Positions 12,075 through 29,803 of a DNA stretch of 64,000 nt are shown here, piece by piece. Numbering within the stretch: the stretch's first letter is position 1; each line of letters begins with the position of its first letter. The notes beneath the pieces were generated by a model. The model saw only the letters and a program-made list of their open reading frames with translations. It was not told the DNA's origin and made no database searches. Source of the stretch: Pseudodesulfovibrio nedwellii (GTDB lineage: Bacteria; Desulfobacterota; Desulfovibrionia; Desulfovibrionales; Desulfovibrionaceae); contig NZ_AP026709.1 in the NCBI RefSeq assembly GCF_027923765.1, forward strand, positions 739,501-803,500. The letters are read 5' to 3'. A program made the position numbers and the translations under genes.

Positions 12075-12440
12075 ATGAGTGAATACAAAGAACGTGACCA
12101 TAGGCACCTCGACCAAGAGGGTAATTACTATTGCAAGCATGTACTCGCCATGACTCAGGAAGGACTTCACGACAAATCAGACATTGCGGCAGAATTGGCG
12201 CACCGCGACTTTGAGATTGACTGTCTTAAAGATGACAAGGGCAGGATTGAAAAACAGATGTGCCACCTAGCCGCTGTCCATCATCTTAACGCTGTAAAAA
12301 TATTTGAAGCGAGTCCTCTTGAGGCGGCACTATCCCGTATTGAAGAACTTGAAGCTGAGCTTTCTGATTGGCAGCGATACTGTGGAATCATCCTGCGTGA
12401 GCAGAGATCAACTGATATGAACAAATCTGAGGAGAACTAA
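12075..12440 (+). CDS. Hypothetical phage protein with helical C-terminus
   Basis: 121 residues from an ATG at 12075 with GAGAGTAAG before it. It contains scattered His and Cys at the N-terminus and a helical, probably coiled-coil stretch (LEAALSRIEELEAELSDWQRY) near the C-terminus. It ends one base before the start of the next gene. Function unknown. Confidence 0.55.
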   Translation: MSEYKERDHRHLDQEGNYYCKHVLAMTQEGLHDKSDIAAELAHRDFEIDCLKDDKGRIEKQMCHLAAVHHLNAVKIFEASPLEAALSRIEELEAELSDWQRYCGIILREQRSTDMNKSEEN

Positions 12441-12441
12441 T

Positions 12442-13008
12442 ATGGGTGGCCCCTACTGCGAGACATGTAAATATTTTTATCAAGGCCCAACGAGTGGTGA
12501 TGGCGGCGAGTGTGAAGACCCCGCCAAGATCATCTACAGCAAGGGAGGGCAGTCCTCAGAAAAGCCTTGGGTCTACAAAAAGTGTGAGTGCTGCAACTGG
12601 ACTGAAATAGAAGGCGAGGAGCGGCCTCATTACGGCAAGGATTGTCCCGAAGGAATGGTGCAAGTCGAGTTTGTCATGTGCGACCCCAAAGACAAAAAGG
12701 GCGAATATGGTTGGAAGCCTGTAGAAAAGACGTCGGTAGATATCTACGTCGACGGTGAACGGTACCTCGTAAAAGTGGGCGACTATCACGACGGGGTTGC
12801 AGAGCGGCGCGGGTTGTATGTCGGAGGCCCTATCGACATGGTGTGTGAGAAGACAAACATCAACACATGCAGCCTGTTCAGAAAATCCACTGATGAAGAC
12901 AAACACGACGAGTCATTCACATGCTCCGACTGCGGCGATAGATTCATGGGCAGTCCGTGTAACGATGATGGGCAATGTACGCTCTGCGCGACAAATGACA
13001 CACTGTAA
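12442..13008 (+). CDS. Cysteine-rich phage protein
   Basis: 188 residues with about 17 cysteines in clusters: CETC near the N-terminus, CECC in the first third, and CSDCGDRF with CTLC at the C-terminus. Several small zinc-binding modules are likely. It follows the previous gene by one base. I do not recognise a family. Confidence 0.6.
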   Translation: MGGPYCETCKYFYQGPTSGDGGECEDPAKIIYSKGGQSSEKPWVYKKCECCNWTEIEGEERPHYGKDCPEGMVQVEFVMCDPKDKKGEYGWKPVEKTSVDIYVDGERYLVKVGDYHDGVAERRGLYVGGPIDMVCEKTNINTCSLFRKSTDEDKHDESFTCSDCGDRFMGSPCNDDGQCTLCATNDTL

Positions 13009-13027
13009 CTTTCTCCCCTCCCCAACG

Positions 13028-13066
13028 AACATCGCGCCGAGGAGTAACGGACCTGGGCGCGGTGTT
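13028..13066 (+). other. Strong intergenic hairpin without T run
   Basis: AACATCGCGCC (13028-13038) pairs with GGCGCGGTGTT (13056-13066), 11 pairs with one G-U. It lies in the 138-base gap before the 123-residue gene and is followed by A-rich sequence, not a T run. It is the largest of several such intergenic hairpins in this operon. Confidence 0.5.
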
Positions 13067-13146
13067 CACAAAAGGGAGAAGCCGCACCACACGGCACGGC
13101 CTCACCTTTCGCGTTCTGCCGGGACAACCCCGACGAGGTAAATAAT

Positions 13147-13518
13147 ATGACTGATAAAACTGAATTGCTCAAGCCTACGATTGAAGAACTGGAAGAACGG
13201 GCCGGGACAGGAGACTGCGACTATGCGGTGTTGGAAGCAGCAGCCGAGTGGGTCGTCGAACTTAAAGGCAAAATTGCCATGAGTTCCACCGCAACTGGCA
13301 TGATGATGGTCCATGGCGAGATCGACCGTTTAAGCGGAGTTATCTATCGCATTGCCGACGATGTTGCTTGGTACATTCAGTGCCGCGAGTTTGAAGGATA
13401 TTTGTACGATATGAATTTTATAGACTTCATCAGTCCGGATGCCCTGGCAGAGATCAGCGCGTCAACTGGATCAGCCATGGGCGTGATGAAAAAGGCTATC
13501 GCGCCGAAGGGGATGTAG
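13147..13518 (+). CDS. Hypothetical phage protein
   Basis: 123 residues, start after CGAGGTAAATAAT. It is predominantly helical, with no recognisable motif. It is spaced two bases from the next gene. Function unknown. Confidence 0.55.
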   Translation: MTDKTELLKPTIEELEERAGTGDCDYAVLEAAAEWVVELKGKIAMSSTATGMMMVHGEIDRLSGVIYRIADDVAWYIQCREFEGYLYDMNFIDFISPDALAEISASTGSAMGVMKKAIAPKGM

Positions 13519-13520
13519 GC

Positions 13521-14099
13521 ATGGAACAAGAAAGCAAAACATACCTGTGCCTTGCCCCCAGGAGGCGGATATACAAGGGGAGGCTTTTCGACATTAGGCC
13601 CTACAAGCCAAACCCCTTTAAGCGTTTTTTTAGTGACTGCTTTCACGGACGAGACTTCTATGGGAATCAAATCGTACATGAATTTATCAAGCACTACGCG
13701 ACCGTGTATGTACGCCCTTATGATTTTTTCCCATGGTCGGAAACTTCACCACTGGTAGACATTGGAGAATACAACGAACACATGGCTTGCCTTGAAGAAG
13801 CGATTGCCAAAGCGACAGAGCTTTCCCGGCGTATTCCCGAAGATTCAATTTGTACTGTGGATGTCGTCCTTGAGACATTCAAAGTGGTCAAGAGGATTAT
13901 TACCAAGACCGAAGATGGCGACTTTATATACGACAGCGGAGAATACTTAAAAATAAGCGAAGACAAAGTGTGGTCGAACACAAAAGAAAAGGTTTCCTCG
14001 CGTATTTTCTGGAAAATGGTTCATTACTTCGGATGGGGCTACGCTTCCTCAATGTTTCAAAGGTTAGTGGACCGATGCCTGATCTCTACAAAATCGTAA
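13521..14099 (+). CDS. Hypothetical phage protein
   Basis: 192 residues beginning MEQESKTYLCLAPRRRIYKGRLFDIRPYKPNPFKRFF, rich in aromatic and basic residues at the N-terminus, with no domain I can name. It overlaps the next gene's start by 25 bases in another frame. Confidence 0.5.
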   Translation: MEQESKTYLCLAPRRRIYKGRLFDIRPYKPNPFKRFFSDCFHGRDFYGNQIVHEFIKHYATVYVRPYDFFPWSETSPLVDIGEYNEHMACLEEAIAKATELSRRIPEDSICTVDVVLETFKVVKRIITKTEDGDFIYDSGEYLKISEDKVWSNTKEKVSSRIFWKMVHYFGWGYASSMFQRLVDRCLISTKS

Positions 14100-14311
14100 C
14101 CGATCGAATCCACCGTGACCTTGAAACGGCCATGGACAAAGAAGCCGAAGAGCTTTCCGAAGGTGAGAAGTTTGCTCTTTGTTATGCTGCCGGAGTCCAG
14201 TTCCATAGCGTTGTTGACGACGATTATATTTTCACATTCAAAACCGTTAATCCCTGTGCTGTCGTCAAGATAGACGGCAAGTTTCAGGTTTACGAAAGAC
14301 AAGACTCATAG
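14075..14311 (+). CDS. Small hypothetical phage protein
   Basis: 78 residues from an ATG at 14075, chosen over an upstream in-frame start that would lie deep inside the previous gene. It reads MPDLYKIVTDRIHRDLETAMDKEAEELSEGE and then a strand-rich C-terminus. Function unknown. Confidence 0.5.
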   Translation: MPDLYKIVTDRIHRDLETAMDKEAEELSEGEKFALCYAAGVQFHSVVDDDYIFTFKTVNPCAVVKIDGKFQVYERQDS

Positions 14312-14325
14312 AGGGATGAAGAACA

Positions 14326-14715
14326 ATGACACCTGTTCTTGTTGACTTAGACGGCCTTGCTAATGCTATAAGCATCAGCAAAAGCACATTGCAAAGATTC
14401 TGGACAACGCTACCACATGTCCGTATCCCCTCTTCGGAGGGGGCGGACGGAAGAGGGGCATTGTTTTCCGTTGAAGATGTTAAACAGTTCCTCGTCATGA
14501 ACCACGGAATCAATTATGGCAGTCAACAAATACAAGACGAAGAAAGGGCCACGGTATCAAGCGGTCCTCTGTCTGCACGGCCAAAGAGTCGCAACGAAGT
14601 CAGGGTTCAAGACAAAGAAGGACGCAAGAAAGTGGCTGCACCAAGAGGAAAAGCGATGGGAATTGTTCGGAGAAAAGACGAAGACCAGCATGGACTTCGA
14701 AGAGTTGGCCGGTGA
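14326..14715 (+). CDS. Excisionase-like/AlpA-like DNA-binding protein with long overlap into the integrase
   Basis: The first 65 residues (LVDLDGLANAISISKSTLQRFWTTLPHVRIPS, then a GRGALFSVEDVKQFL segment) look like a MerR/AlpA-type winged helix used as excisionase or integrase regulator. The remaining 64 residues are the out-of-frame reading of the integrase 5' end and are basic and low in structure. The 200-base overlap with the integrase is unusual; translational coupling is likely. The position, directly before the integrase at the element end, supports the excisionase call. Confidence 0.6.
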   Translation: MTPVLVDLDGLANAISISKSTLQRFWTTLPHVRIPSSEGADGRGALFSVEDVKQFLVMNHGINYGSQQIQDEERATVSSGPLSARPKSRNEVRVQDKEGRKKVAAPRGKAMGIVRRKDEDQHGLRRVGR

Positions 14716-15580
14716 TTACCTAACATGGGTTGAAGACCGCCGGAGCAGAAACACATATATTTACAAACGAAGCACATTCCGCAGATTCCTTGACTTTTAC
14801 CCGCGCAGACTACCTTTAAACGAACTCAGCCGTGAACTCCTTGAAGAGTTCCACCGCGTACAGAACCAAGAGCGCGGCCCGAAGGCAGCCAATAGCGACT
14901 TACGCGAGATAGGGACCATGTTCAATTGGGCCATCAAGCGCGACTACATGGCCAAGAACGTCGCCCGCCAGGTTGAACCATACCCCGTCGAAGCCACTGT
15001 CCGATACGTCCCGCCATCCGAGGATATAGCAGCCGTCAGAATGGCAGCCACTCCAGAAGAACGTCTCATATTCGACACCCTCTACTATTCTGCAGGAAGA
15101 CTCACCGAGATACTTGAGCTCACCTGGGAAGACATTAACTTCGAAGCCAACGCCCTCCGTCTATGGACTTCAAAGCGCAGGGGCGGCAACAAAGAGCCTC
15201 GCGTAATTGCCATGCACAGAGAACTGGAAAAGGTGCTTGAAGAGGCGTGGAAGAGAAGAGACACAGCGAGTCCATACGTCTTCACCAACCCACATACCGG
15301 ATCTCACTACACGCGACACAGCGATCCTATCCGTCTACTCTTCTCTCGTCTCTGCAAGAAGGCCGGACTCAAGAAGCCTTTTACGGCTCATGCTATCCGA
15401 CATCATGTAGCCTCCCGCTTCGCAGATTCGCGCAAAGCGACACACCGCCAGATTCAACAATTCTTGGGCCACATGAATATCAAGACGACAGAAACATATC
15501 TCCATGAGCTCCAAGTCGATCACGACATCCTGGATGCCTTTGACTCTAAGACAGACACCACCAAAGAAGCCGAAAAATAA
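14516..15580 (+). CDS. int: Tyrosine recombinase (phage integrase)
   Basis: A 354-residue site-specific recombinase that joins phage and host attachment sites. Catalytic residues are visible: R195 (AGRLTE), K220 (WTSKRR), H292 and R295 (HAIRHH), H319 (LGHMN) and the nucleophile Y328 (TETYLH). Residues 1-50 form an arm-binding, AP2-like N-terminus (KYKTKKGPRYQAVLCLHGQR) and residues 60-150 a core-binding SAM-like domain. It points at the tRNA-Ser fragment 120 bases downstream, with repeat-rich putative arm sites between, so tRNA-Ser (CGA) is its integration target. Confidence 0.95.
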   Translation: MAVNKYKTKKGPRYQAVLCLHGQRVATKSGFKTKKDARKWLHQEEKRWELFGEKTKTSMDFEELAGDYLTWVEDRRSRNTYIYKRSTFRRFLDFYPRRLPLNELSRELLEEFHRVQNQERGPKAANSDLREIGTMFNWAIKRDYMAKNVARQVEPYPVEATVRYVPPSEDIAAVRMAATPEERLIFDTLYYSAGRLTEILELTWEDINFEANALRLWTSKRRGGNKEPRVIAMHRELEKVLEEAWKRRDTASPYVFTNPHTGSHYTRHSDPIRLLFSRLCKKAGLKKPFTAHAIRHHVASRFADSRKATHRQIQQFLGHMNIKTTETYLHELQVDHDILDAFDSKTDTTKEAEK

Positions 15581-18875: not shown

Positions 18876-20171
18876 CTACAACCCTACATTCTTCAAATCA
18901 TCTCCGAGATATTCACGTTCGTTTTCGCCAAGCATACCGAGCGAAAGACAAATGAGTGTCCAGAGGTGAACCACCGGGAAGTGTGCGCCGGAGTATTCAC
19001 TGAGATCATGAATCTGTGAATGGCAGTTATGACATGGCGCGATGCAATAGTCCGCCTTGGTGCGAAGAATCTGATCGAGTTTGATCTGACCATACTTGCG
19101 CCGTTCGTCTGCAAAACCTGACTGGAGAAATCCGCCGCCGCCACCGCAACAGTAGTTGTTGGATTTATTCGGCCACATATCGATGAAATTTTCTTCACCG
19201 ACTACGGATTTGACCACAAAACGAAGGTCCTCGGCCACCGGATCACCCAGTGACTTCCGTACAAGCTGACACGGGTCCTGAACCGTGAAGGTCACGCCCA
19301 AGTCCTTGTTCCAATCGGAGTTGACTGGCAGCTTGCCCTCACGAATCCACTGGGCATACAGCCGAATAATGCTTTCCATCTCGAAGTCGTGTTCAACATT
19401 AAACTTTTGCAGTCCGGCCCGGACTGCATAAAATTCGTGTCCTCACTCCGTGTTGAGCCAAACCTTGCACCCCAGCTCTTCTACGGCTCCGGCCTTGTTG
19501 CGCACCACATTTTCCCATGCGTCATCATCGGCCAGAAACATGCAGTAATTTTCTGCAGCCCATCCTTTGGTGCTATATGTCCAGTCCGCGCCGACCAGAT
19601 TAAGTATCTTCCAGAGCGGAACCATTTCGTCCGGCTCGGTCACTGGTTCGCGTGAATTCTGATTCAGGAAATAATACGCGCCCTTTCTGTCGACAGAGAC
19701 TTGAATATTCTCCTGACCAGGCTGCATTTCACGCACTTCCTCGGCCACATCCTCAACCACGAATTTGAAGTCTTCGCTGGATGCACCCATTGCGCTGTTG
19801 CCGGGGGTGTTCAAGGCCTGTTCGCAGGAACCAAGTATTCCTTTGGGACGATCTTCCCTCGGCCACGATTGACGGCATTGATAAATTAGTTGTGGGATAT
19901 CCACTTCCATGGGACATGCATGAACACACCGTCGACACATGGTGCACAACCACACCCAGGATGTGGACCGGATAGTTTCTTCCTGTCCCATAAGCGCCAA
20001 ACGCACGAATTTGCGAGGGTCCATGTCTTCCATACCCGTGGCAGGGCATCCTGCAGAACAGGCTCCACACGTGAGACACATGTTCAGATTACCGCCCTCG
20101 GGCAGCAGTTCCCGGACCTTGTCCACCAGTTCCGATTGCTTCGGCTCAAGAAGAAGCGCTGCTTCACCCAT
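18876..20171 (-). CDS. HdrD/GlpC-like Fe-S oxidoreductase, probable selenoprotein (UGA at residue 243)
   Basis: Read through the in-frame TGA at 19445-19443, this is one 431-residue protein. The N-terminus binds two [4Fe-4S] clusters (Cys 32/35/38/42, CLTCGACSAGCP; Cys 76/79/82/86, CTMCRRCVHACP). The C-terminal half is a CCG domain like those of HdrB/HdrD, DsrK and GlpC (C301, CCG at 341-343, C380 and C383 in CHNC). The TGA falls in LNTE-U-GHEFY, where relatives have ECGH, so selenocysteine replaces a conserved cysteine. A perfect hairpin 14 bases after the TGA fits a bacterial SECIS. It is last in the hdr operon, 108 bases after the usp gene. A frame broken by mutation is the alternative, but no other damage is seen. 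Confidence 0.85.
19408..19428 (-). promoter_or_regulatory. SECIS-like hairpin for selenocysteine insertion
   Basis: On the minus strand TGCAGTCC pairs with GGACTGCA across a GGGCC loop. The stem begins 14 bases after the UGA, inside the coding region, which is where SelB-binding elements sit in bacteria, and the loop begins with G. Confidence 0.75.
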
Positions 20172-20279: not shown

Positions 20280-21182
20280 CTAGGCCAAGGCCTCCGTCTG
20301 AACAGCCGCGCCTGTCTGGTCGTACATAAGGCCGCAACGCAAATCGAAGTGACGGTTGACGCTCATGGTCGGACACGGTGCATTCAATGCCACCTGAGTG
20401 ACCGTCGAACCAAGGAAAGCCTTTTCCGGATCACGTTCCTTGGAATGGTGAGCCATGATGATCAGGTCTGCATCGGCCTGATTCCCCATGCGCAGAATTT
20501 CCATGGAAGGCTTGCCGCGACAGGCCTCGAAACCGCATTCACCGATACCATCAAGACGAGGACCATATTCATCTTCCAGTCGTCCGATGACATCAGAGCG
20601 ACTGTTTCCATTTTCCACGACATGCATGATCTTGAGATTGGCCTTGTACTGACGGGCCATCTGGCCGCCGTAACTTACGGCGCATTCAGCTTGATCAGAG
20701 AAATCGGTTGCCACAAGGATATTACTATACAGCGGTTCCTTACAAACAACGTCCTTGTGAACAATCATGACCGGACAGCGGGCCTTCTGACTCACGCGTT
20801 CAAGCGTACTGCCTGTCATGCCCCACATCTTGGAACGGGTTTCCTCGTATTCCTTGGTGTGCGGTCCCATGACGATAAGGTCGGTGTTCTTCTTTCGTGC
20901 CAGACGCAGAATCTCGTTGTGCGGGATACCCGGTACGACAATAATCTGTGATTCCTGGATTCCCTCAAGCATTTCCGCATACGTTTCAGAGATCTGTTCC
21001 TTGAGCCGTGAAGTTTCACCCGAAGGTTCCAGAGTTTCGATAGAACCCCAGCCCTGAGCCATGCCCGCTACATGAACGAGGTAAAGCTTTGACTCGAACT
21101 TACGAGCGAATTCCATTGCTGCCTGAACCGCGCAGTTGTCGATTCCGGTAGGAGTGACTCCTACGATGATGTCCTTAAACAT
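20280..21182 (-). CDS. Universal stress protein, two UspA domains
   Basis: A 300-residue cytoplasmic protein with two UspA folds: residues 1-145 (MFKDIIVGVTPTGIDNCAVQAAMEFA..., then DLIVMGPHTKE and GSTLERVSQKARCPVMIVHK) and residues 150-300 (NILVATDFSDQAECAVSYGGQMA..., DLIIMAHHSK, GSTVTQVALNAPCPTMSV). Both have the G-rich segment that binds ATP in some family members. Its start overlaps the hdrB stop by eight bases, so it is translationally coupled to the redox genes and probably tunes or protects the complex; that role is inferred. Confidence 0.85.
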   Translation of the reverse strand: MFKDIIVGVTPTGIDNCAVQAAMEFARKFESKLYLVHVAGMAQGWGSIETLEPSGETSRLKEQISETYAEMLEGIQESQIIVVPGIPHNEILRLARKKNTDLIVMGPHTKEYEETRSKMWGMTGSTLERVSQKARCPVMIVHKDVVCKEPLYSNILVATDFSDQAECAVSYGGQMARQYKANLKIMHVVENGNSRSDVIGRLEDEYGPRLDGIGECGFEACRGKPSMEILRMGNQADADLIIMAHHSKERDPEKAFLGSTVTQVALNAPCPTMSVNRHFDLRCGLMYDQTGAAVQTEALA

Positions 21183-22128
21183 GATTTGCCCCCTTGCTGA
21201 GGTTATCCGCCTTTGCTTCCGCCATATCGTCGCCGCTTTCGACCTGGTTCGGCTGGCTCCAGACCTTGTTGGCGATATCCCTCCTGACCCCAGCCGATAT
21301 GGTCAGGTTTTTCTCGAATTGAATGGCCCCATCCTCCAGCCCGAAGGCTTCGCCCATCAATTGTGTCAGATAGAGAATGGGGATAGGTTTGGCTCCAAGT
21401 TTCTGCGCCTGCGACTGATATGCCTCAAGATTCATCTGACATAATGGACAGACCGTGGCGATGGCATCCGCGCCCTCTGCATCAGCGAGTATTGCCGCCA
21501 CCGATTGAAGTGCCACATCTCTATGCCCCACCATGAGCGAAGCACCACAACATTTGTTTCCGTGATTCCACTCATGCATTTCTGCACCCAATGCCGTAAG
21601 AACACGATGCATGGATGTAGGGTTCTTGGGATCATCAAACACCGGGTATGGTCGTAAGATCTGACACCCGTAATATGGGGCGATCTTCATGCCCTCAAGG
21701 TTGTTTGTCACCTTCTGTTCAATAATTTTTGCCCCGACATCATTGATGAGAACATCGAGAATATGTCGCACCTCCACCTTGCCGGAATAGGTCAAACCGG
21801 ACGCAGCCAGCACTTCATTCACCTTGCCATGCAGACTCCTGTCTCCAATTACTTCCTTGTTCACCTTGAGCAGGTTGAGATAGCAGGCGGAACACGGCGC
21901 GATCACATCAATGCCGTCGAGTTCTTTTTCAGTGAGGGCAAGATTACGTGCCGGAAGCGCATAGTTCATAAGCTTGCTCACCGGCTCAGCCGCACTCGCG
22001 CCGCAACAGGTCCAGTCTGGAATTTCAATCAATTCGGCACCAAGATACTCCATGACTGCACGCGTAGAGATATCAAACTCCGTCGCACTTTCAGTCAAAG
22101 AACAACCTGGGTAGTATGCGTATTTCAT
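21175..22128 (-). CDS. hdrB: Heterodisulfide reductase subunit B-like protein
   Basis: A 317-residue cytoplasmic subunit. Two CCG domains are visible (CCGAS near residue 42 with CSAC near 80, and CCGAS near 194 with CPLC near 225), the ligands of two non-cubane [4Fe-4S] clusters where disulfides are reduced in methanogen HdrB. In a sulfate reducer the physiological disulfide or acceptor is unknown. The start overlaps the hdrC stop by four bases (ATGA). The C-terminal 60 residues extend beyond a bare HdrB and lack motifs. Confidence 0.9.
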   Translation of the reverse strand: MKYAYYPGCSLTESATEFDISTRAVMEYLGAELIEIPDWTCCGASAAEPVSKLMNYALPARNLALTEKELDGIDVIAPCSACYLNLLKVNKEVIGDRSLHGKVNEVLAASGLTYSGKVEVRHILDVLINDVGAKIIEQKVTNNLEGMKIAPYYGCQILRPYPVFDDPKNPTSMHRVLTALGAEMHEWNHGNKCCGASLMVGHRDVALQSVAAILADAEGADAIATVCPLCQMNLEAYQSQAQKLGAKPIPILYLTQLMGEAFGLEDGAIQFEKNLTISAGVRRDIANKVWSQPNQVESGDDMAEAKADNLSKGANHV

Positions 22129-22691
22129 GACAATCCCTCCATCTCTCGCGCCTTGGCGAACATAGGCTTCAGCACTCCGCCCTGACCGCCACCCGGCATA
22201 TGTACCTTGCCCTTGGCCATCATCTTCATACCCAGCGGTACAAACTTGAGCGGTAGCGTCGGGTTATCCATGCGTTTGAAGAAATAATTGCTCATCATGC
22301 CCATTTCCTGCACTCGACCATGTGACTCGACATTTTCCATGAACGCTCTATAGAACGCACTGTTCTTACGTCCTTTGCCACTGAGCATGGCCAGTCTCTT
22401 CAGAGAAGCCATGACCGAAGTGAGTTTGAGACCTCGTGGACATCGCAGTGTGCAGGTGTAACAAGATGAACACATCCAGAAGGTCTGGCTTTCAAGGATC
22501 TCGTCGAGCATGCCGAACTGGATCATCCGCCACATGGCCCGTGGAGTGATATCCATGGCGAACCCGTTGGGACAGGATGCCGTACAAGTACCGCACTGCA
22601 TACAGGCCCCGACTTCTTCCTTTAATTGGGCGAGCACGAACTCGATTTCATCTCCGGCCGGGCTCCATGTTTTTCTTACTGCTTCGCTCAT
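22125..22691 (-). CDS. hdrC: Heterodisulfide reductase subunit C-like protein
   Basis: 188 residues. Two ferredoxin-type [4Fe-4S] motifs (CMQCGTCTASCP and CSSCYTCTLRCP) carry electrons between HdrA and HdrB. The ATG at 22691 was preferred over one at 22745, which would run back into the previous gene. There are 25 bases between it and the double-HdrA gene, and it overlaps hdrB by four bases. Confidence 0.9.
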   Translation of the reverse strand: MSEAVRKTWSPAGDEIEFVLAQLKEEVGACMQCGTCTASCPNGFAMDITPRAMWRMIQFGMLDEILESQTFWMCSSCYTCTLRCPRGLKLTSVMASLKRLAMLSGKGRKNSAFYRAFMENVESHGRVQEMGMMSNYFFKRMDNPTLPLKFVPLGMKMMAKGKVHMPGGGQGGVLKPMFAKAREMEGLS

Positions 22692-22716
22692 GGCGTTATT
22701 CCTCCATATTTCCGAA

Positions 22717-25700
22717 TTACGCCGGTTCTTCGAGTGCCGCGTCAATGACAGACATCATCGGCCCATCGTGGAATCCCTTGAGGACCGTGGCACTGTTAGG
22801 ACAAACTGCCGCACAGGAGCCACACCCCTGACACAGGATTTCGTCCACCTGAATCTGACCGAGTTCCATATCCAATACACGAGCACCATACGGGCAGGCC
22901 GCGATACACGCCTGACACAATGAACACAATGAGTGTCGGACAGAGGCCACCACAGTTTCACGGGCAATAGTTTCTGCATTGAGAATTCGTAATGCGCGTT
23001 GAGCAGCAGCCTTTGCAGAAGCAACAGATTCTCCCATTCGACGAGGAGCCAAACCGGTTCCGCACGCGTAAACACCCTGCTTGAGGAAATCTACGGGCCG
23101 CCACTTGAAATCCGCTTCTTGATAAAAGCCGTCTTCGTTAATCTCCACGCCAAAGACTTCCTGGATATCATCCATGTCATTGGGTTCCATGCCACTCGAA
23201 AGTGACAGAATATCTGGCCTGAGGATTATGTTTTCCCTAAGAATGGGGTCGTAGGCCGTAATGACCGGCTTACCTTCCTCAAACTTCACCTGAGGGGGGG
23301 CGTCCTGTTCATATCGAATGAAGATGGCTCCGGCCTTCCGTGCCTGCGTGTAGTAGGTCTCAAGGAAACCAGGCATCATAATATCACGATAGAACACGTA
23401 TATCGACAGATCAGGATTGCGCTCCTTGAGAGCGAGCACGTTCTTGACCATTTCCGGACAACACACCTTGCTGCAATAGGTACGGTCCTCACCGGGCTTG
23501 CGCCAACACTGAATCATGGCAACCGAAGAAAGTATGCCTGCGTCAAGCTGACCTGTGGCAAGCTGTTCTTCCAATGCGAAATGAGTCATCACCGACTTAT
23601 GCACACACAGGCCGCTTTCATAGACCTTGGCCTCGTGTGCACCGGTAGCAAGAATGGAGACACCATGCTCAAGAGGGAATACTCCTTCCGGACTGGCAAT
23701 GGCGGAACGGAACCGTCCTGCACTGCCTCGAGACAGCACGACACGTGAATCCTTGAGCACCCTGATATTCGGATGCTTTTCCACCTGTGCGATGAGTTCT
23801 TCCATGTACTTGTGTGGATCGGAACCATCGAGTTGTGTATGCAACCGCATAGCCATGCCGCCAAGTTCTTCTTCGGATTCCACCAAACAGACTCCATAGC
23901 CTTGATCCGCAATAGCCATAGCCGCTGTCATACCCGCCAATCCACCACCGACAACCAAGGCCGACCGTTCTACGTCAACCATATTAGGTGGCGGTGTTGG
24001 GTCGACTCCTTGCAACCGTGCTACAGCCGTGGACAAAGATGCGTAAATCTCCTTCTCCGCTGTTCGTGCATCTGTTTCCGGGCCAAAGGTCGGTGTATAG
24101 ATATCCACCACATCCATAAGTGCGGGATTCAGACCAATGGTCTTACCCAATTCCTTGAGACGGGGAATGTAGGCGTAAGGCATACACGCACCGATGATAA
24201 TACGGTTCGGCTTGAACTCTATGGCCGCCTGTTCAATATCGCCCCACCCTTCTACCGTGCAGGCACTTCCTACACTTACAACCTTGCAAACCGAGTGAAC
24301 ATTGGCCATACGCAGACTCAACGCTTCGATATCAACGGATTGCTCCAAAGTAGGACAGGATGCACAGACTGCCACCAATGTACGAGGTGGTTCACGCGAA
24401 ACGTCTGGGAAATCGGGTTCAGGTTCGTCCTCAATACCCGCCAGCACGTCATATGCCTTGATGATACGGGACGCGGCTTGCGCTGCTGCGCCTGCATGAA
24501 TCACGGATTCGGAGATGTCCTTGGGTTCACCAAACGCCCCGGCTGCGAATATACCGACAGCGCTTGTGCGTTCCGGTGAATACGGCTGCGTATCTGCGAA
24601 ACCCCACTGATTGAGATCAATACCGATTGTCTGCGCAAATGTGTCCGAATTCTTTGGCGGACGTGCTCCCACGGCCAGAACAACCATGTCATAGATTTCG
24701 GTGACCATTGTTCCGTCTTCGGCAAAGTATTCGAGTTTGATGTCTTGCCCGTCATCCGTCGGCAGGAGCGAATGAGGACGGCTGCGCACAAAACGAACGC
24801 CCTGTTCTTTTTCAGCATTGATACGATATCGTTGATATCCCTTCCCCGCCGTACGCATATCCATGTAAAAAATGGAAGTCTCCACTTCACCATTGGTCAC
24901 CTTTTTAGCGAGCAACGATTCCTTGATGGAAAACATGCAGCATATCCCAGAACAGAAATCCGCATTCCTTTGCACATCGCGCGAGCCAACGCACTGAATC
25001 CATGCAATCTTTTTGATCGGCTTGTCATCACCGGGACGCAACAGCTTGCCGCCTGTGGGACCAGTCCCGCTCAAAAGGCGTTCGAATTCGACCGCTGTAA
25101 GTACGCCGGGGTGTTCATAATTCCAGATTTCCGATGAAACCTCAGGATCTGTTTTTGGATCGTAGCACTCAAATCCACCGGCCAAAACGATGGCTCCGAC
25201 TTCCAGTTCCTCGACAGTGTCTGAAAGAATACGCACGAACAACTTATCGAGCCACGGCACAAACTTCTTTGCCGTCAACGGCTTGGTCAGATATTCGCGT
25301 GCACCTTGCAAAACAAGTTCGGTAGCGGTTTCATCCTGACTTTCATCTGCCAGAATAACCACCGGCATATCCGGGTGAAGTTCCTGACAACGTGTCAAGA
25401 CACGTTCGGCATCCATGTCATTAATATTTAATCCAAGTAGGACAAGCCTGAATTGATCGGTTTCGGCGAGCTGATCCACTGCCTCACGCCCACTTGCGGT
25501 AAAATGAAGTGGGAAATTCTGTTCATCAAGACTTCCTTGCATCATTTCCTGTACCGTTTCATCTCGATCTACCACGAGGATATGAAAATCCTTGCGCTCT
25601 TCGAACTTGAAATCAATGGCCCCGGTAGGACATACTTCATGACATTTCCAACAACGCAAACAGTTGTCCAAATCCAGTACATACTGATTGGGAATGGCAT

Positions 25701-26151
25701 GCGGAACCGGCAGATAAATAGCTGCCCGTTGCGTCAATCCAGCGTTGAATTCACTGTCCACTCGAACCGGGCACACCTCGGAACACTTGCCGCAACTAAC
25801 ACATTTGGTCGGGTCCACCAAAGGCGATGTTCGGTTTAACGAGACAAAGAACTTGCCCGGTTCACCTTCTACTTCCGCCACTTCGGTAGAGAGCATAATA
25901 TCAATATTATCGTGAAACAGCCCCTTGCGCAGGCAATACTGGCTGGATGAATCCCGTGACATAAGCGGCAGCATCTTACACATGCCGCAATGATCGGACG
26001 GAAATTGGTGGTCAAGTTGACTCAAAATTCCACCGTGGTTCGGACGGCGGTCGATAAGAGCGACCTTGTGACCAGTAACGGCCAGGTCGAGAGCGGCGCG
26101 TATACCACCGATTCCTGCGCCTACCACCATTGCTCCGTATTGCTTCCTCAT
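22717..26151 (-). CDS. Giant double HdrA with embedded pseudo-receiver domain
   Basis: A 1144-residue flavoprotein made of two HdrA-like modules. Module 1: FAD-binding VVGAGIGGIRAA (9-20), a Cys pair CGMC (55-58), two [4Fe-4S] motifs (CVSCGKCSEVCP 117-128; CLRCWKCHEVCP 164-175). A CheY-like receiver (about 188-308) follows; at the phospho-acceptor position it has Gly (LVLLGLNI, G240) though K290 is kept. The HdrA FAD domain then resumes (to about 570). Module 2: N-terminal HdrA domain (590-715), second FAD fold VVGGGLAGMTAA (733-744) and two C-terminal [4Fe-4S] motifs (1076-1087, 1107-1118). Start at 26151, with GAGGA upstream, not the longer frame overlapping the previous gene. Probable flavin-based bifurcation centre. 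Confidence 0.85.
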   Translation of the reverse strand: MRKQYGAMVVGAGIGGIRAALDLAVTGHKVALIDRRPNHGGILSQLDHQFPSDHCGMCKMLPLMSRDSSSQYCLRKGLFHDNIDIMLSTEVAEVEGEPGKFFVSLNRTSPLVDPTKCVSCGKCSEVCPVRVDSEFNAGLTQRAAIYLPVPHAIPNQYVLDLDNCLRCWKCHEVCPTGAIDFKFEERKDFHILVVDRDETVQEMMQGSLDEQNFPLHFTASGREAVDQLAETDQFRLVLLGLNINDMDAERVLTRCQELHPDMPVVILADESQDETATELVLQGAREYLTKPLTAKKFVPWLDKLFVRILSDTVEELEVGAIVLAGGFECYDPKTDPEVSSEIWNYEHPGVLTAVEFERLLSGTGPTGGKLLRPGDDKPIKKIAWIQCVGSRDVQRNADFCSGICCMFSIKESLLAKKVTNGEVETSIFYMDMRTAGKGYQRYRINAEKEQGVRFVRSRPHSLLPTDDGQDIKLEYFAEDGTMVTEIYDMVVLAVGARPPKNSDTFAQTIGIDLNQWGFADTQPYSPERTSAVGIFAAGAFGEPKDISESVIHAGAAAQAASRIIKAYDVLAGIEDEPEPDFPDVSREPPRTLVAVCASCPTLEQSVDIEALSLRMANVHSVCKVVSVGSACTVEGWGDIEQAAIEFKPNRIIIGACMPYAYIPRLKELGKTIGLNPALMDVVDIYTPTFGPETDARTAEKEIYASLSTAVARLQGVDPTPPPNMVDVERSALVVGGGLAGMTAAMAIADQGYGVCLVESEEELGGMAMRLHTQLDGSDPHKYMEELIAQVEKHPNIRVLKDSRVVLSRGSAGRFRSAIASPEGVFPLEHGVSILATGAHEAKVYESGLCVHKSVMTHFALEEQLATGQLDAGILSSVAMIQCWRKPGEDRTYCSKVCCPEMVKNVLALKERNPDLSIYVFYRDIMMPGFLETYYTQARKAGAIFIRYEQDAPPQVKFEEGKPVITAYDPILRENIILRPDILSLSSGMEPNDMDDIQEVFGVEINEDGFYQEADFKWRPVDFLKQGVYACGTGLAPRRMGESVASAKAAAQRALRILNAETIARETVVASVRHSLCSLCQACIAACPYGARVLDMELGQIQVDEILCQGCGSCAAVCPNSATVLKGFHDGPMMSVIDAALEEPA

Positions 26152-26179
26152 AACGTCCTCCCGAAACTGGGACCTGTCA

Positions 26180-27325
26180 TTAGGCCATGTGCGACACTGT
26201 GTCCTGGAACTCGTCTTCCTTGAAAACCGAAAGCGGCGGCGACTCTTCCAGACTTCTGCCCGGCTCGTAGTCAAAGCTCTTCTGTGTCCGAGCTGCGACT
26301 GTACGGAACAACTCCATTACGGGGATGCCGTTAGGACAAGCATTAGAACACTGTCCACATCCCACACAGGCCATGGACATATGCGCCATACGGGTCAGAT
26401 GATAGAAGATAGTATCCGTGGGCAGCTTGAGACTTCCCTTACGCTTGGCCCAGCCCATGTACTGCCACGGCTTATGTTCGAACACGTCAGTATTAAAAAC
26501 GCATTCCTTGCAGTAACAAACCGGACAAGCCACTCGGCAATTATAACAATTCACGCAACTCGACAGATATTCTGACAAATCGGTCAATGTACCAGTGGCG
26601 GCCTTGGTCGCCTCAATCATGGCATCACGATTTTTAGTGCGCACCTTAATAAGCGATTCAAGCACTGCGTCTCGTCCAGTGGTTTCCATATTGGGCAACC
26701 CAAGGCTATTGAGCAGAGCCTCGCCTCGAGCACTATCTGCCATGACCGGAATAGCATCGTGCAGATCTGCACCGGCGATCCCAATAACAATATCCGCATT
26801 GGTCGGAGCCGGGAATTCACAGGACTTGCAGGCCGGAGCTATATCCACACCGTTCACAGCTGTCTCATTTGCTCCACCGTGCTGTCCTTGAAATGCAAGT
26901 GTTGCCTCAAATGACTCCCGGTCACCGACGAACGTCGTATAGCCAGTGTTGTCATAGGCCCCCATACAATCCATCCCCACGATAATTACATCATCAAGGC
27001 TGCCCTGATTGAGCTTCACTAATTCCACGAATGCCCTAATTTCACAGGGGCGCATAACAACAGCTATACGTTCGCCGGACTGACCACGCGTCAATCGCGA
27101 CAGAAGTTTTGCACTGTTCAGGGGAAATGCCGGAGCCAAAGGGTCCGCACCTGAAAGCTGATCAGGGTCAGTCACCAACGTCGGCATGGGGAGTCCCTTG
27201 TCAAACAGATGAACCGGCACCACGACTCCGCCTAATGACTCGTCTTCCAACAAGCCACGCAAAAAGCCTTGTATCGCCACAACCGGGTTGTTATTTTCAA
27301 CCTGTATTTTCACAGTGGTCGCCAT
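26180..27325 (-). CDS. FrhB/FdhB-like Fe-S flavoprotein
   Basis: A 381-residue protein. The first 200 residues resemble the FrhB/FdhB family (MRPCEIRAFVELVKLNQGSLDDVIIVGMDCMGAYDN). Then come a Cys-rich block CVNCYNCRVACPVCYCKEC (about residues 248-266) and a C-terminal ferredoxin-type motif CVGCGQCSNACPNG. Family members link F420, NAD(P)H or formate dehydrogenase modules to Hdr complexes. No hydrogenase or formate dehydrogenase gene is adjacent, so its partner is unknown. It lies 17 bases after mvhD. Confidence 0.8.
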   Translation of the reverse strand: MATTVKIQVENNNPVVAIQGFLRGLLEDESLGGVVVPVHLFDKGLPMPTLVTDPDQLSGADPLAPAFPLNSAKLLSRLTRGQSGERIAVVMRPCEIRAFVELVKLNQGSLDDVIIVGMDCMGAYDNTGYTTFVGDRESFEATLAFQGQHGGANETAVNGVDIAPACKSCEFPAPTNADIVIGIAGADLHDAIPVMADSARGEALLNSLGLPNMETTGRDAVLESLIKVRTKNRDAMIEATKAATGTLTDLSEYLSSCVNCYNCRVACPVCYCKECVFNTDVFEHKPWQYMGWAKRKGSLKLPTDTIFYHLTRMAHMSMACVGCGQCSNACPNGIPVMELFRTVAARTQKSFDYEPGRSLEESPPLSVFKEDEFQDTVSHMA

Positions 27326-27343: not shown

Positions 27344-27772
27344 CTAAACCACGGCCATGGAACGCGCTTCCATGGGACCGAGTTCTCTGATTTCGTTAAT
27401 GAAAGAATTTACCGTTTCCGCAAATTCATTCCCTTCACTCGCTCCTACCCAAGTCAGCTTGACGCGCTCCCTTTCAACTCCAAACTGAGGCAGGATTTCG
27501 TTGAGGAGCTTAACCCGACGTCGGGCCTTGTAATTGCCATTGATATAATGGCAATCACCGGGATGACACCCACTGACAAGCACTCCGTCAGCTCCGGAAA
27601 GGAGCGACTTTACGATGTACTTGGGGTCCACCATGCCGGTACACATAACGCGTACCAATCGAAGATTCGGCTGTTGCACCATTCTCGACGTTCCAGCGAG
27701 ATCTGCTGCGGTGTAGGTGCACCAGTTGCAGACAAAAGCTAAAATGGTCGGTTCGAATTCACTACTCATCAC
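27344..27772 (-). CDS. mvhD: MvhD/FlpD-like electron-transfer subunit
   Basis: 142 residues of the methyl-viologen-reducing hydrogenase delta family, which binds a [2Fe-2S] cluster and passes electrons to HdrA. The cysteines are in NWCTY (about residue 17), MCTGM and SGCHPGDCHY. It lies six bases after hdrA, as in other Hdr clusters that dock hydrogenase or formate dehydrogenase modules. Confidence 0.9.
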   Translation of the reverse strand: MMSSEFEPTILAFVCNWCTYTAADLAGTSRMVQQPNLRLVRVMCTGMVDPKYIVKSLLSGADGVLVSGCHPGDCHYINGNYKARRRVKLLNEILPQFGVERERVKLTWVGASEGNEFAETVNSFINEIRELGPMEARSMAVV

Positions 27773-27778
27773 TGCCTC

Positions 27779-29803
27779 CTAGGCTTCGCCTGGTTGATTG
27801 TCGCTGACGGCCTCAGCTATTTGTCCCTCGCCCTCAGGAGGCACAAGGTCAAACATCATGCCAAGCATTCCATCGATTTCATTGAATATCTGTGTCTGAT
27901 TAAAGTGCTTGATCTGTGCGGCTCCACTCGGACAATAACCGGCACAGCTGCCACACCCCTTACACATGGCTTCATTGATGACCGAAATTTGTCGTCGTTC
28001 ATCAAATTCAATGGCCGAGTATGGGCACAAGTCGATACACACCTTGCATCCGATGCACACGTCCGGGTCGATCCACGAGGTTGTAGGAGAGATGGAGACC
28101 GTTCCCTTAGCCGCAAGCGCAAGGGCCTGCGCTGCACCACCTGAAGCATGGGCAACGGCATCAGGGATATCCTTTGGTCCCTGACAGGCTCCAGCAAGGA
28201 ACACACCATCTGTTGCGGTAGAAACCGGACCAAGCTTGGGATGCTCTTCGAGGAAGAAACCATCCTGCCCTTGGGCCACACCGAAGATACGTGCCACTTC
28301 ATTTGTATCACTCCGTGCTTCCATGGCGGTACAAAGAATGACCATGTCCACAGGCACCCGCACGTTCATTCCGAGCAAGGTATCCTCGCCGACGATGACC
28401 AGCGAATCGTCTTCCTGCACAACTTCAGCCGGACGGCCTCGAATAAAGGTCACGCCTTCTTCCTGCACACGCTTGAAGAATTCTTCGTACCCTTTACCGA
28501 AACACCGCATATCAATATAAAAATTATACACTTTGGTGTCATGTCCGACCTTGTCTTTGATAAGATGATCAAACTTGAGGGCGTACATGCAACAGGTGCG
28601 CGAACAGTATTCGTGATAATTCTTATCGCGGCTGCCCACACAATGAATTATACCGACACTCTTGGGCGCCTCGCCATTCTTCAAGACGATCTTTCCCTCG
28701 GTGGGACCAACTGCATTGTTAAGCCGTTCGAATTGTAGCGCGGTGTACACATTGTCAAAACGACCAAAACCGTATTCGTACAACGGTGTCGGGTCCATGG
28801 CATCGTATCCGGTAGCCAGTACGATGGAACCAACATTAAAGACTTCATGAGTCTCCTTCATTGTATAATCAATGGCCCCGGTAGGACATATAGTCTGACA
28901 AATTCCGCACTTGTCCTTGGTGATCTTTTTGCAAATTGAACCATCAATGACCGGCGTACTCGGCACAGCCTGTGGCGAATTCCGATAAATGGCCTTTCGC
29001 ATGGAAAGCCCTTCGTTAAACTCATTCAAGGCCTTGGTTGGACACTTTTCAAGACAGGCACCGCATCCAGTACAAATAGCTTCGTTGACGTAGCGAGGCT
29101 TGTGCTTCACGGTCACGGTATAATTCCCGACAAAACCGGAAACGTCCTCGACTTCACTCCACGTCATAAGATTGATATTCGGTTCCTGCGACACTGCCAC
29201 CATCTTGGGGGTAGAGATGCAGGCCGCACAATCCAACGTCGGAAACGTCTTGTCGAACTGGGCCATATGTCCACCAATTGATGGACTTTTTTCAACCAGA
29301 TGAACCTTGTGTCCCGATTTTGCGATATCAAGAGAGGCCTGAATACCGGCGATGCCAGCACCAACGACCATGACATCCGGCAGGACATCCACTTCGCGAG
29401 AAAAGAGCTTCTCATGATCACCCACTCTATCAACAGCCGCTTCGACAATGTGCTTGGCCTTGGCTGTCGCTTCATCCGGGTCAGCGGTTGTCCATGAACA
29501 ATGTTCACGAATACATGCGTGTTGCATGAGATAAGGATTCAGCCCAGCTCTTGCACAAGCCTTCTGAAACGTCTTTTCATGCAGACGCGGCGAACAGGAT
29601 GCCACGACGACCCGATTGAGGCCGTATTCGCGGATATCCTTGATAACCATTTCTTGTCCCGGGTCCGAACACATGAATTGGTAGTCTCGAGAGACCGCCA
29701 CGTCCTTGAGTTTTCCGGCATACCTGGCCACGTCTTCGCAATCGACCTTTCCCGCGATGTTCGAACCGCAGTGACAGATGTATACTCCGATTTTGTTGCC
29801 CAT
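27779..29803 (-). CDS. hdrA: Heterodisulfide reductase subunit A-like flavoprotein
   Basis: A complete 674-residue HdrA. It has the N-terminal domain (MGNKIGVYICHCGSNIAG..., SCSPRLHEKTF, HACIREHCSW), the FAD fold VVGAGIAGIQAS, the conserved LDCAACISTPKM segment and four [4Fe-4S] motifs (CTGCGACLEKCP, CGICQTICP, CIGCKVCIDLCP, CKGCGSCAGYCP). HdrA is the flavin site where electrons bifurcate between ferredoxin and a disulfide. GGAGGAACC precedes the start, 22 bases after the OrfA-like gene. Having two HdrA genes in one operon is noteworthy. Confidence 0.93.
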   Translation of the reverse strand: MGNKIGVYICHCGSNIAGKVDCEDVARYAGKLKDVAVSRDYQFMCSDPGQEMVIKDIREYGLNRVVVASCSPRLHEKTFQKACARAGLNPYLMQHACIREHCSWTTADPDEATAKAKHIVEAAVDRVGDHEKLFSREVDVLPDVMVVGAGIAGIQASLDIAKSGHKVHLVEKSPSIGGHMAQFDKTFPTLDCAACISTPKMVAVSQEPNINLMTWSEVEDVSGFVGNYTVTVKHKPRYVNEAICTGCGACLEKCPTKALNEFNEGLSMRKAIYRNSPQAVPSTPVIDGSICKKITKDKCGICQTICPTGAIDYTMKETHEVFNVGSIVLATGYDAMDPTPLYEYGFGRFDNVYTALQFERLNNAVGPTEGKIVLKNGEAPKSVGIIHCVGSRDKNYHEYCSRTCCMYALKFDHLIKDKVGHDTKVYNFYIDMRCFGKGYEEFFKRVQEEGVTFIRGRPAEVVQEDDSLVIVGEDTLLGMNVRVPVDMVILCTAMEARSDTNEVARIFGVAQGQDGFFLEEHPKLGPVSTATDGVFLAGACQGPKDIPDAVAHASGGAAQALALAAKGTVSISPTTSWIDPDVCIGCKVCIDLCPYSAIEFDERRQISVINEAMCKGCGSCAGYCPSGAAQIKHFNQTQIFNEIDGMLGMMFDLVPPEGEGQIAEAVSDNQPGEA

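Follow-up and report, generated by a model that had tools for sequence, protein, structure and literature searches.

An HdrD-like gene apparently broken by a stop codon in an hdr cluster of Pseudodesulfovibrio nedwellii is probably an intact selenoprotein gene

An apparently stop-broken gene in an hdr cluster of Pseudodesulfovibrio nedwellii is, judging from sequence comparison, almost certainly one intact gene in which UGA codon 243 is read as selenocysteine (Sec). On this reading, the energy-metabolism cluster no longer includes a gene that looks broken. The kind of selenoprotein is already known, and the gene is a well-supported new example of it. The gene is located in a stretch of 64,000 nucleotides (contig NZ_AP026709.1, positions 739,501 to 803,500), which was analysed as a whole and is called the window here; all coordinates without a locus or genome label refer to it. 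The gene has the following features:

18876..20171, minus strand: putative selenoprotein gene (HdrD-like), supported by a single phase, Fer4_8 and CCG Pfam domains, relatives with UGA at the same codon, and pN/pS
19443..19445, minus strand: UGA codon 243, predicted to encode Sec (Sec in 25 and Cys in 6 of the 31 rows of alignment A1; selA, selB, selC and selD in the genome)
19409..19427, minus strand: SECIS-type hairpin of 8 bp with loop GGC (z -3.7; pairing kept in 146 UGA segments)

The initial annotation described two frames of the same phase, 20171-19443 and 19379-18876, parted by one UGA at 19445-19443, and this arrangement was confirmed. Once the TGA is read as Sec, the gene from 20171 to 18876 on the minus strand encodes 431 residues, the TGA is the sole internal stop, and the read-through context at codon 243 is WLNTE-U-GHEFYAV (TE-U-GHEF). 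In general an in-frame stop marks a dead gene, and the UGA could be a real stop in a pseudogene or the product of a sequencing error. A dead or split gene is not expected, however, because the 21 codons from the UGA to the second ATG (19379) are conserved (all 21 are identical in L030, the nearest relative, and 19 in L059) and pN/pS between the window gene and 13 relatives is 0.02-0.20 after the UGA, compared to 0.01-0.31 before it. These 21 codons behave as coding sequence, and selection is equally strong on both sides of codon 243. The pseudogene explanation is also contradicted by loci L099-L207, where 108 of 109 rows have at least 55% identity and feature TGA at this codon in 105 cases, TGC in 2, and TGT in 1; the remaining row (54%) has TGA as well. 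Its probability is negligible. Both frames are listed as open reading frames, which would suit a split into an HdrC-like piece of 242 residues and a CCG protein of 167 residues that starts at ATG 19379. The conserved 21 codons argue against two proteins, as do the Cys relatives, which span the site in a single chain, and the lack of a Shine-Dalgarno-like stretch before ATG 19379 when inspected by eye, so that this arrangement is very improbable. Past the stop codon of the gene, a long terminator-like inverted repeat was seen by eye at 18853-18812 (minus strand), which the promoter and terminator scan did not list.

Conservation of the UGA was profiled in 98 genomes, including that of the window, and 97 of these gave some match at E <= 0.001. 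The close set was defined by at least 60% identity and at least 400 aligned residues and holds 61 matches, the window's own gene among them; five partial matches above 60% identity were left out, three with UGA and two that do not cover the site. UGA was found in 57 of these 61 matches, making Sec the usual form among near relatives. The four close matches that lack UGA, three without a stop and one with TAG, have TGC or TGT, and thus Cys, at the aligned codon. The initial annotation proposed that the UGA replaces the Cys of a conserved ECGH segment, and this is borne out by the homologues, which feature Cys or Sec and no third residue at position 243 in all 31 rows of A1, and by Cys in the genome's own HmcF, TmcB, and DsrK. 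In a larger set of 185 distinct sequences, which leaves out exact duplicates and rows with fewer than 330 aligned columns, Sec and Cys numbered 148 and 18 at 55% identity or more, 4 and 2 at 45-55%, 3 and 1 at 35-45%, and 3 and 6 below 35%; these numbers differ from frequencies, Cys copies having been sought out. The loci chosen for the absence of a listed UGA are L208-L220 (13 loci), L081, L083, L084, and L227. A search for related loci kept the best 80 of 568 confirmed relatives, which favours close copies. An even sample of the phylum (395 genomes) gave 108 genomes with a match at E <= 1e-60, and UGA copies were also present in families outside the order.

The SECIS-type hairpin (19427-19409) has the arms GCAGTCCG/CGGACTGC and the loop GGC. 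It begins 15 nt past the UGA, or 14 nt when a flanking T-A pair is counted, in agreement with the 8-bp hairpin reported 14 bases past the UGA by the initial annotation. The 50-nt stretch that starts at the UGA folds with -18.2 kcal/mol, compared to -8.8 +/- 2.5 kcal/mol for shuffled sequences (z -3.7; one shuffle in 200 folds as well). Among 146 unique UGA segments, all eight stem pairs are kept in 86 cases, seven in 58, and six in 2. The pairs formed over these segments number 1106 against a shuffle mean of 1019.9 and a maximum of 1039 (none of 1000 shuffles as good), a test that is inflated by the relatedness of the sequences. The stem shows compensatory changes: the pair adjacent to the loop is G-C in 106 segments, T-A in 28, G-T in 5, A-T in 3, and unpaired in 4, and another pair is G-C in 130, A-T in 7, T-A in 2, G-T in 1, and unpaired in 6. 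Fifty of the 146 segments lack the outermost of the eight pairs, and the flanking ninth T-A pair of the window is kept in just 37. Bacterial SECIS elements follow a rule that places a G at the start of the loop, and the first loop base is G in all 146 segments; the hairpin directly past the UGA is of the kind expected for a selenoprotein. The clearest mark of the hairpin is codon choice, which is extremely biased. The Val codon is GTC in 135 of 135 cases (35% elsewhere in the same genes), the Arg codon is CGG in 115 of 115 (24% elsewhere), and the Gly codon is GGA in 141 and GGG in 5 of 146, where GGA accounts for 19% elsewhere in the same genes. In seven unique Cys segments, the number of pairs kept out of the eight is 7, 4, 2, 5, 3, 2, and 3; the segment with seven is the Cys copy of locus L065 and may contain a remnant SECIS. 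That locus contains a tandem pair of one Cys copy and one Sec copy (12296-13567 and 13638-14912) inside one hdr cluster. An Rfam scan of the window found no family at gathering score, and the same scan missed a tRNA-Ser that was found by ARAGORN, which gives this negative result little weight.

A UGA at the same place is also featured by three distant relatives with 27-34% identity (L095 4854-5999, L096 13621-14781, and L097 13315-14478). Their stems are quite unlike that of the window in sequence yet pair when inspected by eye, for example GCGCTTCG-GTA-CGAAGCGC in L097. The shared position of the UGA and the other sequence of these hairpins imply that Sec at the ECGH site extends beyond this orthologue group.

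The selenocysteine machinery, on whose presence the initial annotation made its reading depend, is complete in the genome, a single contig of 3.76 Mb. The matches to selA (612.5 bits, cut-off 267.9), selB (398.6 bits, cut-off 242.25), tRNA-Sec (selC; 78.7 bits, cut-off 47), and selD (340.6 bits, cut-off 125) each exceed the curated cut-off, as is expected of a genome that encodes a selenoprotein. The selD gene (L026 1501-2430) itself has one in-frame UGA, at residue 10 of the matched stretch, and Sec therefore appears to be used elsewhere in the organism too.

Pfam places a 4Fe-4S dicluster domain (Fer4_8) at residues 29-90 and a CCG domain at residues 296-387, so the predicted product features an HdrC-like dicluster domain and an HdrB-like CCG domain in one chain. 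The residues that are invariant in A1 are C32, C35, C38, and C42, C76, C79, C82, and C86, residue 243, and C301, C341, C342, C380, and C383. The first eight cysteines are expected to form two [4Fe-4S] clusters. The second CCG half has all five of its cysteines (C301 to C383), and residue 243 is the sole conserved cluster-type residue left in the first half. The AlphaFold2 model has a pLDDT of 90.6 and a pTM of 0.89, and its closest matches among solved folds are EtfD of Mycobacterium smegmatis (9ojn, E 2.1e-11) and HdrB of methanogens. A profile comparison of A1 with the HdrB of the window is weak (probability 12.5) and covers residues 261-413, the second CCG half, with residue 243 outside.

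The label HdrD/GlpC-like given by the initial annotation is sound as a statement of resemblance and fails as a statement of membership. GlpC is rejected by both of its models (TIGR03379, 37.1 bits with a cut-off of 279.9; NF008369, 41.2 with a cut-off of 278). The best-matching curated models are instead those of HmcF (NF045711, 152.8 bits, cut-off 750), TmcB (NF045724, 139.8, cut-off 735), and DsrK (NF045796, 114.7, cut-off 400), and membership in these was rejected as well. The same genome has a separate HmcF (L003, 787.1 bits against 750), TmcB (L004, 750.4 against 735), and DsrK (L005, 715.3 against 400), all three with TGT (Cys) at the codon aligned to 243. The presence of its own DsrK fits a sulfate reducer. 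DsrK, HmcF, and TmcB of sulfate reducers share the domain order of the window protein, and those of this genome have the Cys of a CGH motif at the aligned place, but their identity to it is 21-29% in the aligned stretches and the window protein scores far below the three cut-offs. Methanogen HdrB/HdrC (5odc, 7bkb, and 8rvu) have the HdrC-like clusters and the second CCG domain in common with the window protein, which differs in being fused in one chain and in a first CCG half without other conserved cluster cysteines. HdrD of the HdrDE heterodisulfide reductase agrees in domain order only, and it is this order that the term HdrD-like describes.

In the proposed mechanism, SelB and tRNA-Sec would decode UGA 243 as selenocysteine with the help of the adjoining hairpin. 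The product would be a fused HdrC+HdrB-like electron carrier that, as gene order suggests, often works with an HdrA-type flavoprotein module. The conserved cysteines suggest that two N-terminal [4Fe-4S] clusters would pass electrons to one non-cubane-type cluster on the five Cys of the second CCG half. Sec243 would face this C-terminal cluster and may take part in the reduction or oxidation of a thiol/disulfide partner, where both the step and the partner are conjectural. A comparison is offered by ferredoxin:thioredoxin reductase, which pairs a cluster with a redox-active cysteine. The case for a redox-active Sec243 is about evenly balanced. A changed redox chemistry of the terminal thiol/disulfide step, as put forward by the initial annotation, is speculative. 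Alternatively, for this last step only, Sec243 could serve the non-cubane-type cluster as an iron ligand or a structural tuner and would then not be a free redox-active selenolate. In favour of this alternative, residue 243 falls on the first Cys of TCPHC, the CxxC of the first half, in the profile alignment with EtfD; however, the five conserved cysteines are already in the second CCG half, and the other first-half cysteines are unconserved, leaving no complete first site. The ligand or tuner role is possible and somewhat improbable. A free redox Sec is preferred, given the five cysteines that the second CCG half already provides. If Sec is located beside the CCG cluster site, it would provide a 77Se handle for studying the way CCG-type enzymes process thiols and disulfides.

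The gene order in the window is HdrA, MvhD, FrhB-like, HdrA with a receiver domain, HdrC, HdrB, Usp, and the selenoprotein. The seven genes upstream are as follows:

20280..21182, minus strand: universal stress protein with two Usp stretches (PF00582), 108 nt from the selenoprotein start codon
21175..22128, minus strand: HdrB-like subunit with two CCG stretches (PF02754; HdrB structures, best 6.7e-40)
22125..22745, minus strand: HdrC-like subunit (curated models and Pfam)
22717..26274, minus strand: HdrA-like subunit with a response-regulator receiver domain (residues 232-338 of the listed ORF)
26180..27325, minus strand: FrhB-like iron-sulfur protein (PF04432)
27344..27772, minus strand: MvhD/FlpD subunit (PF02662)
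27779..29803, minus strand: HdrA-like subunit (NF040770, 792.6 bits, below the cut-off of 1100)

Because it overlaps the preceding gene, the listed TTG start of the HdrA-like gene at 22717-26274 probably lies upstream of the true one. The selenoprotein gene was initially annotated as ending the hdr operon; the hdr genes are indeed upstream, although the Usp gene at 20280-21182 stands in between. In the 108 nt that separate the Usp gene from the start codon of the selenoprotein gene, the promoter and terminator scan listed nothing, a result that would allow, but does not prove, a single transcript. The same gap features a 9-bp GC-rich hairpin, CGGGAGCGG/CCGCTCCCG, at 20230-20209 (minus strand), without a T run when inspected by eye. 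Usp is also upstream of the gene in 9 other loci; in L065 the Cys copy lies in between.

Neighbourhoods were counted for 95 distinct related genes with enough flank, the window not among them. Genes with less than 4.5 kb upstream or less than 3.5 kb downstream, genes below 49% identity, and loci L001-L058 and L179-L207 (short flanks) were left out. HdrA is found on the same strand within 7 kb of 54 of the 95 genes. These 54 include 14 with HdrB and HdrC (10 of them with Usp) and 18 with HdrA alone or with MvhD, as well as 12 with MetV or MetF and 10 with MvhA or MvhG; in these last two groups, HdrB, HdrC, or both were not found in the vicinity. GlpA/GlpB-type neighbours occur at 3 of the 95 genes, a label that is based on general FAD-oxidoreductase domains only, and for 38 of the 95 the surrounding 7 kb showed neither HdrA, MetV/MetF, MvhA/MvhG, nor GlpA/GlpB-type neighbours on the same strand. 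The names MetV, MvhA, MvhG, GlpA, and GlpB were read from the Pfam domains of one representative each. HdrA is beside 43 of 79 Sec copies and 11 of 16 Cys copies, numbers that are not frequencies given that Cys copies were sought out; because Cys copies adjoin HdrA too, Sec is not needed for the association.

The neighbourhoods name HdrA, MvhAG, MetV/MetF, and GlpA/B types as concrete partner candidates and point to an electron-transfer subunit that may be shared by several HdrA modules. A broader and doubtful proposal is that the protein could be a Desulfobacterota-wide plug-in unit, which would take the place of HdrB and HdrC in several complexes of HdrA with MvhAG-type hydrogenase or with MetV/MetF, would join them in other complexes, and would bring selenolate two-electron chemistry beside a single non-cubane-type cluster instead of the two of HdrB. 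Additionally, a single-domain response regulator of about 131 residues (Pfam Response_reg in one representative) is near the gene in 10 loci (L108, L113, L121, L128, L134, L139, L152, L162, L169, and L176).

The novelty implied by the initial annotation was mistaken, as the available parts of the selenoprotein catalogues feature such a family since 2006 (PMC1794560, PMC13188914). In the part available, the catalogue by Zhang and Gladyshev lists it as "Fe-S oxidoreductase (GlpC)" with five Sec members, three from Syntrophobacter fumaroxidans, one from Desulfotalea psychrophila, and one from Desulfovibrio vulgaris, and describes a glpC-hdrA-frhD-frhG-frhA operon (PMC1794560). Passages from a 2022 review (PMC9312934) and a 2026 review (PMC13188914) name a "Fe-S oxidoreductase-like protein" with the RefSeq entry WP_174406253.1, for which the latter gives the motif UGH. 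The initial annotation expected automatic calling to miss the gene; the RefSeq entry, as cited in those passages, suggests that such genes are not always missed. The marks of the UGH family are the UGH motif, a PTHR43551 match, and similarity to WP_174406253.1, and the window protein is set beside the family by the motif, found in its TEUGHEF. The available passages place members of the family in Deltaproteobacteria, including Desulfovibrio vulgaris, and place it beside hdrA-frhD-frhG-frhA in Syntrophobacter and Desulfotalea; the counterpart here is HdrA with MvhA/MvhG-type genes at 10 of 95 genes. This likeness is one of motif, hosts, and gene order, and makes the window gene a possible orthologue. 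Likened by description only is HdrD4 of the sulfate reducer Desulfobacterium autotrophicum HRM2, which has HdrC- and HdrB-like domains and is listed as selenocysteine-containing in the part available of the 2009 genome paper (PMC2702500). A Fe-S oxidoreductase UGA cluster that includes Desulfotalea DP1009 appears in excerpts of PMC1914089. In the main text of the GOS selenoproteome paper, as far as available, the words Fe-S oxidoreductase and GlpC are absent (PMC2398784). A literature search on DsrK with noncubane found no paper, and the MetV/MetF association of this selenoprotein was not found in the literature passages available, which is not a claim that it is unpublished.

The available 2006 table lists two Cys-to-Sec events and no Sec-to-Cys event for Fe-S oxidoreductase (GlpC) (PMC1794560), whereas Cys copies are found here at several places among Sec copies. 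A quick tree was built from 78 rows, which were left from the 185 once every row with 80% or more identity to a retained row in the same Sec or Cys state had been removed. The Sec/Cys label changes 14 times on this tree, and at least 11 of the changes are forced by starred branches. Clustering of the label is moderate (14 changes compared to a shuffled mean of 17.9, with 6 of 500 shuffles as low). The tree suggests repeated Sec-to-Cys change in this gene group, and this direction is likely on a quick tree in which long branches meet and the outgroup is not on one side of a branch. Two of the 61 close matches have a stop other than UGA: a Cys-type copy (G041:C1:868924-870150) has a TAG within the match, and a Sec-type copy (G044:C35:16084-17298) has a TAA in addition to the UGA. 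Both may be decaying copies.
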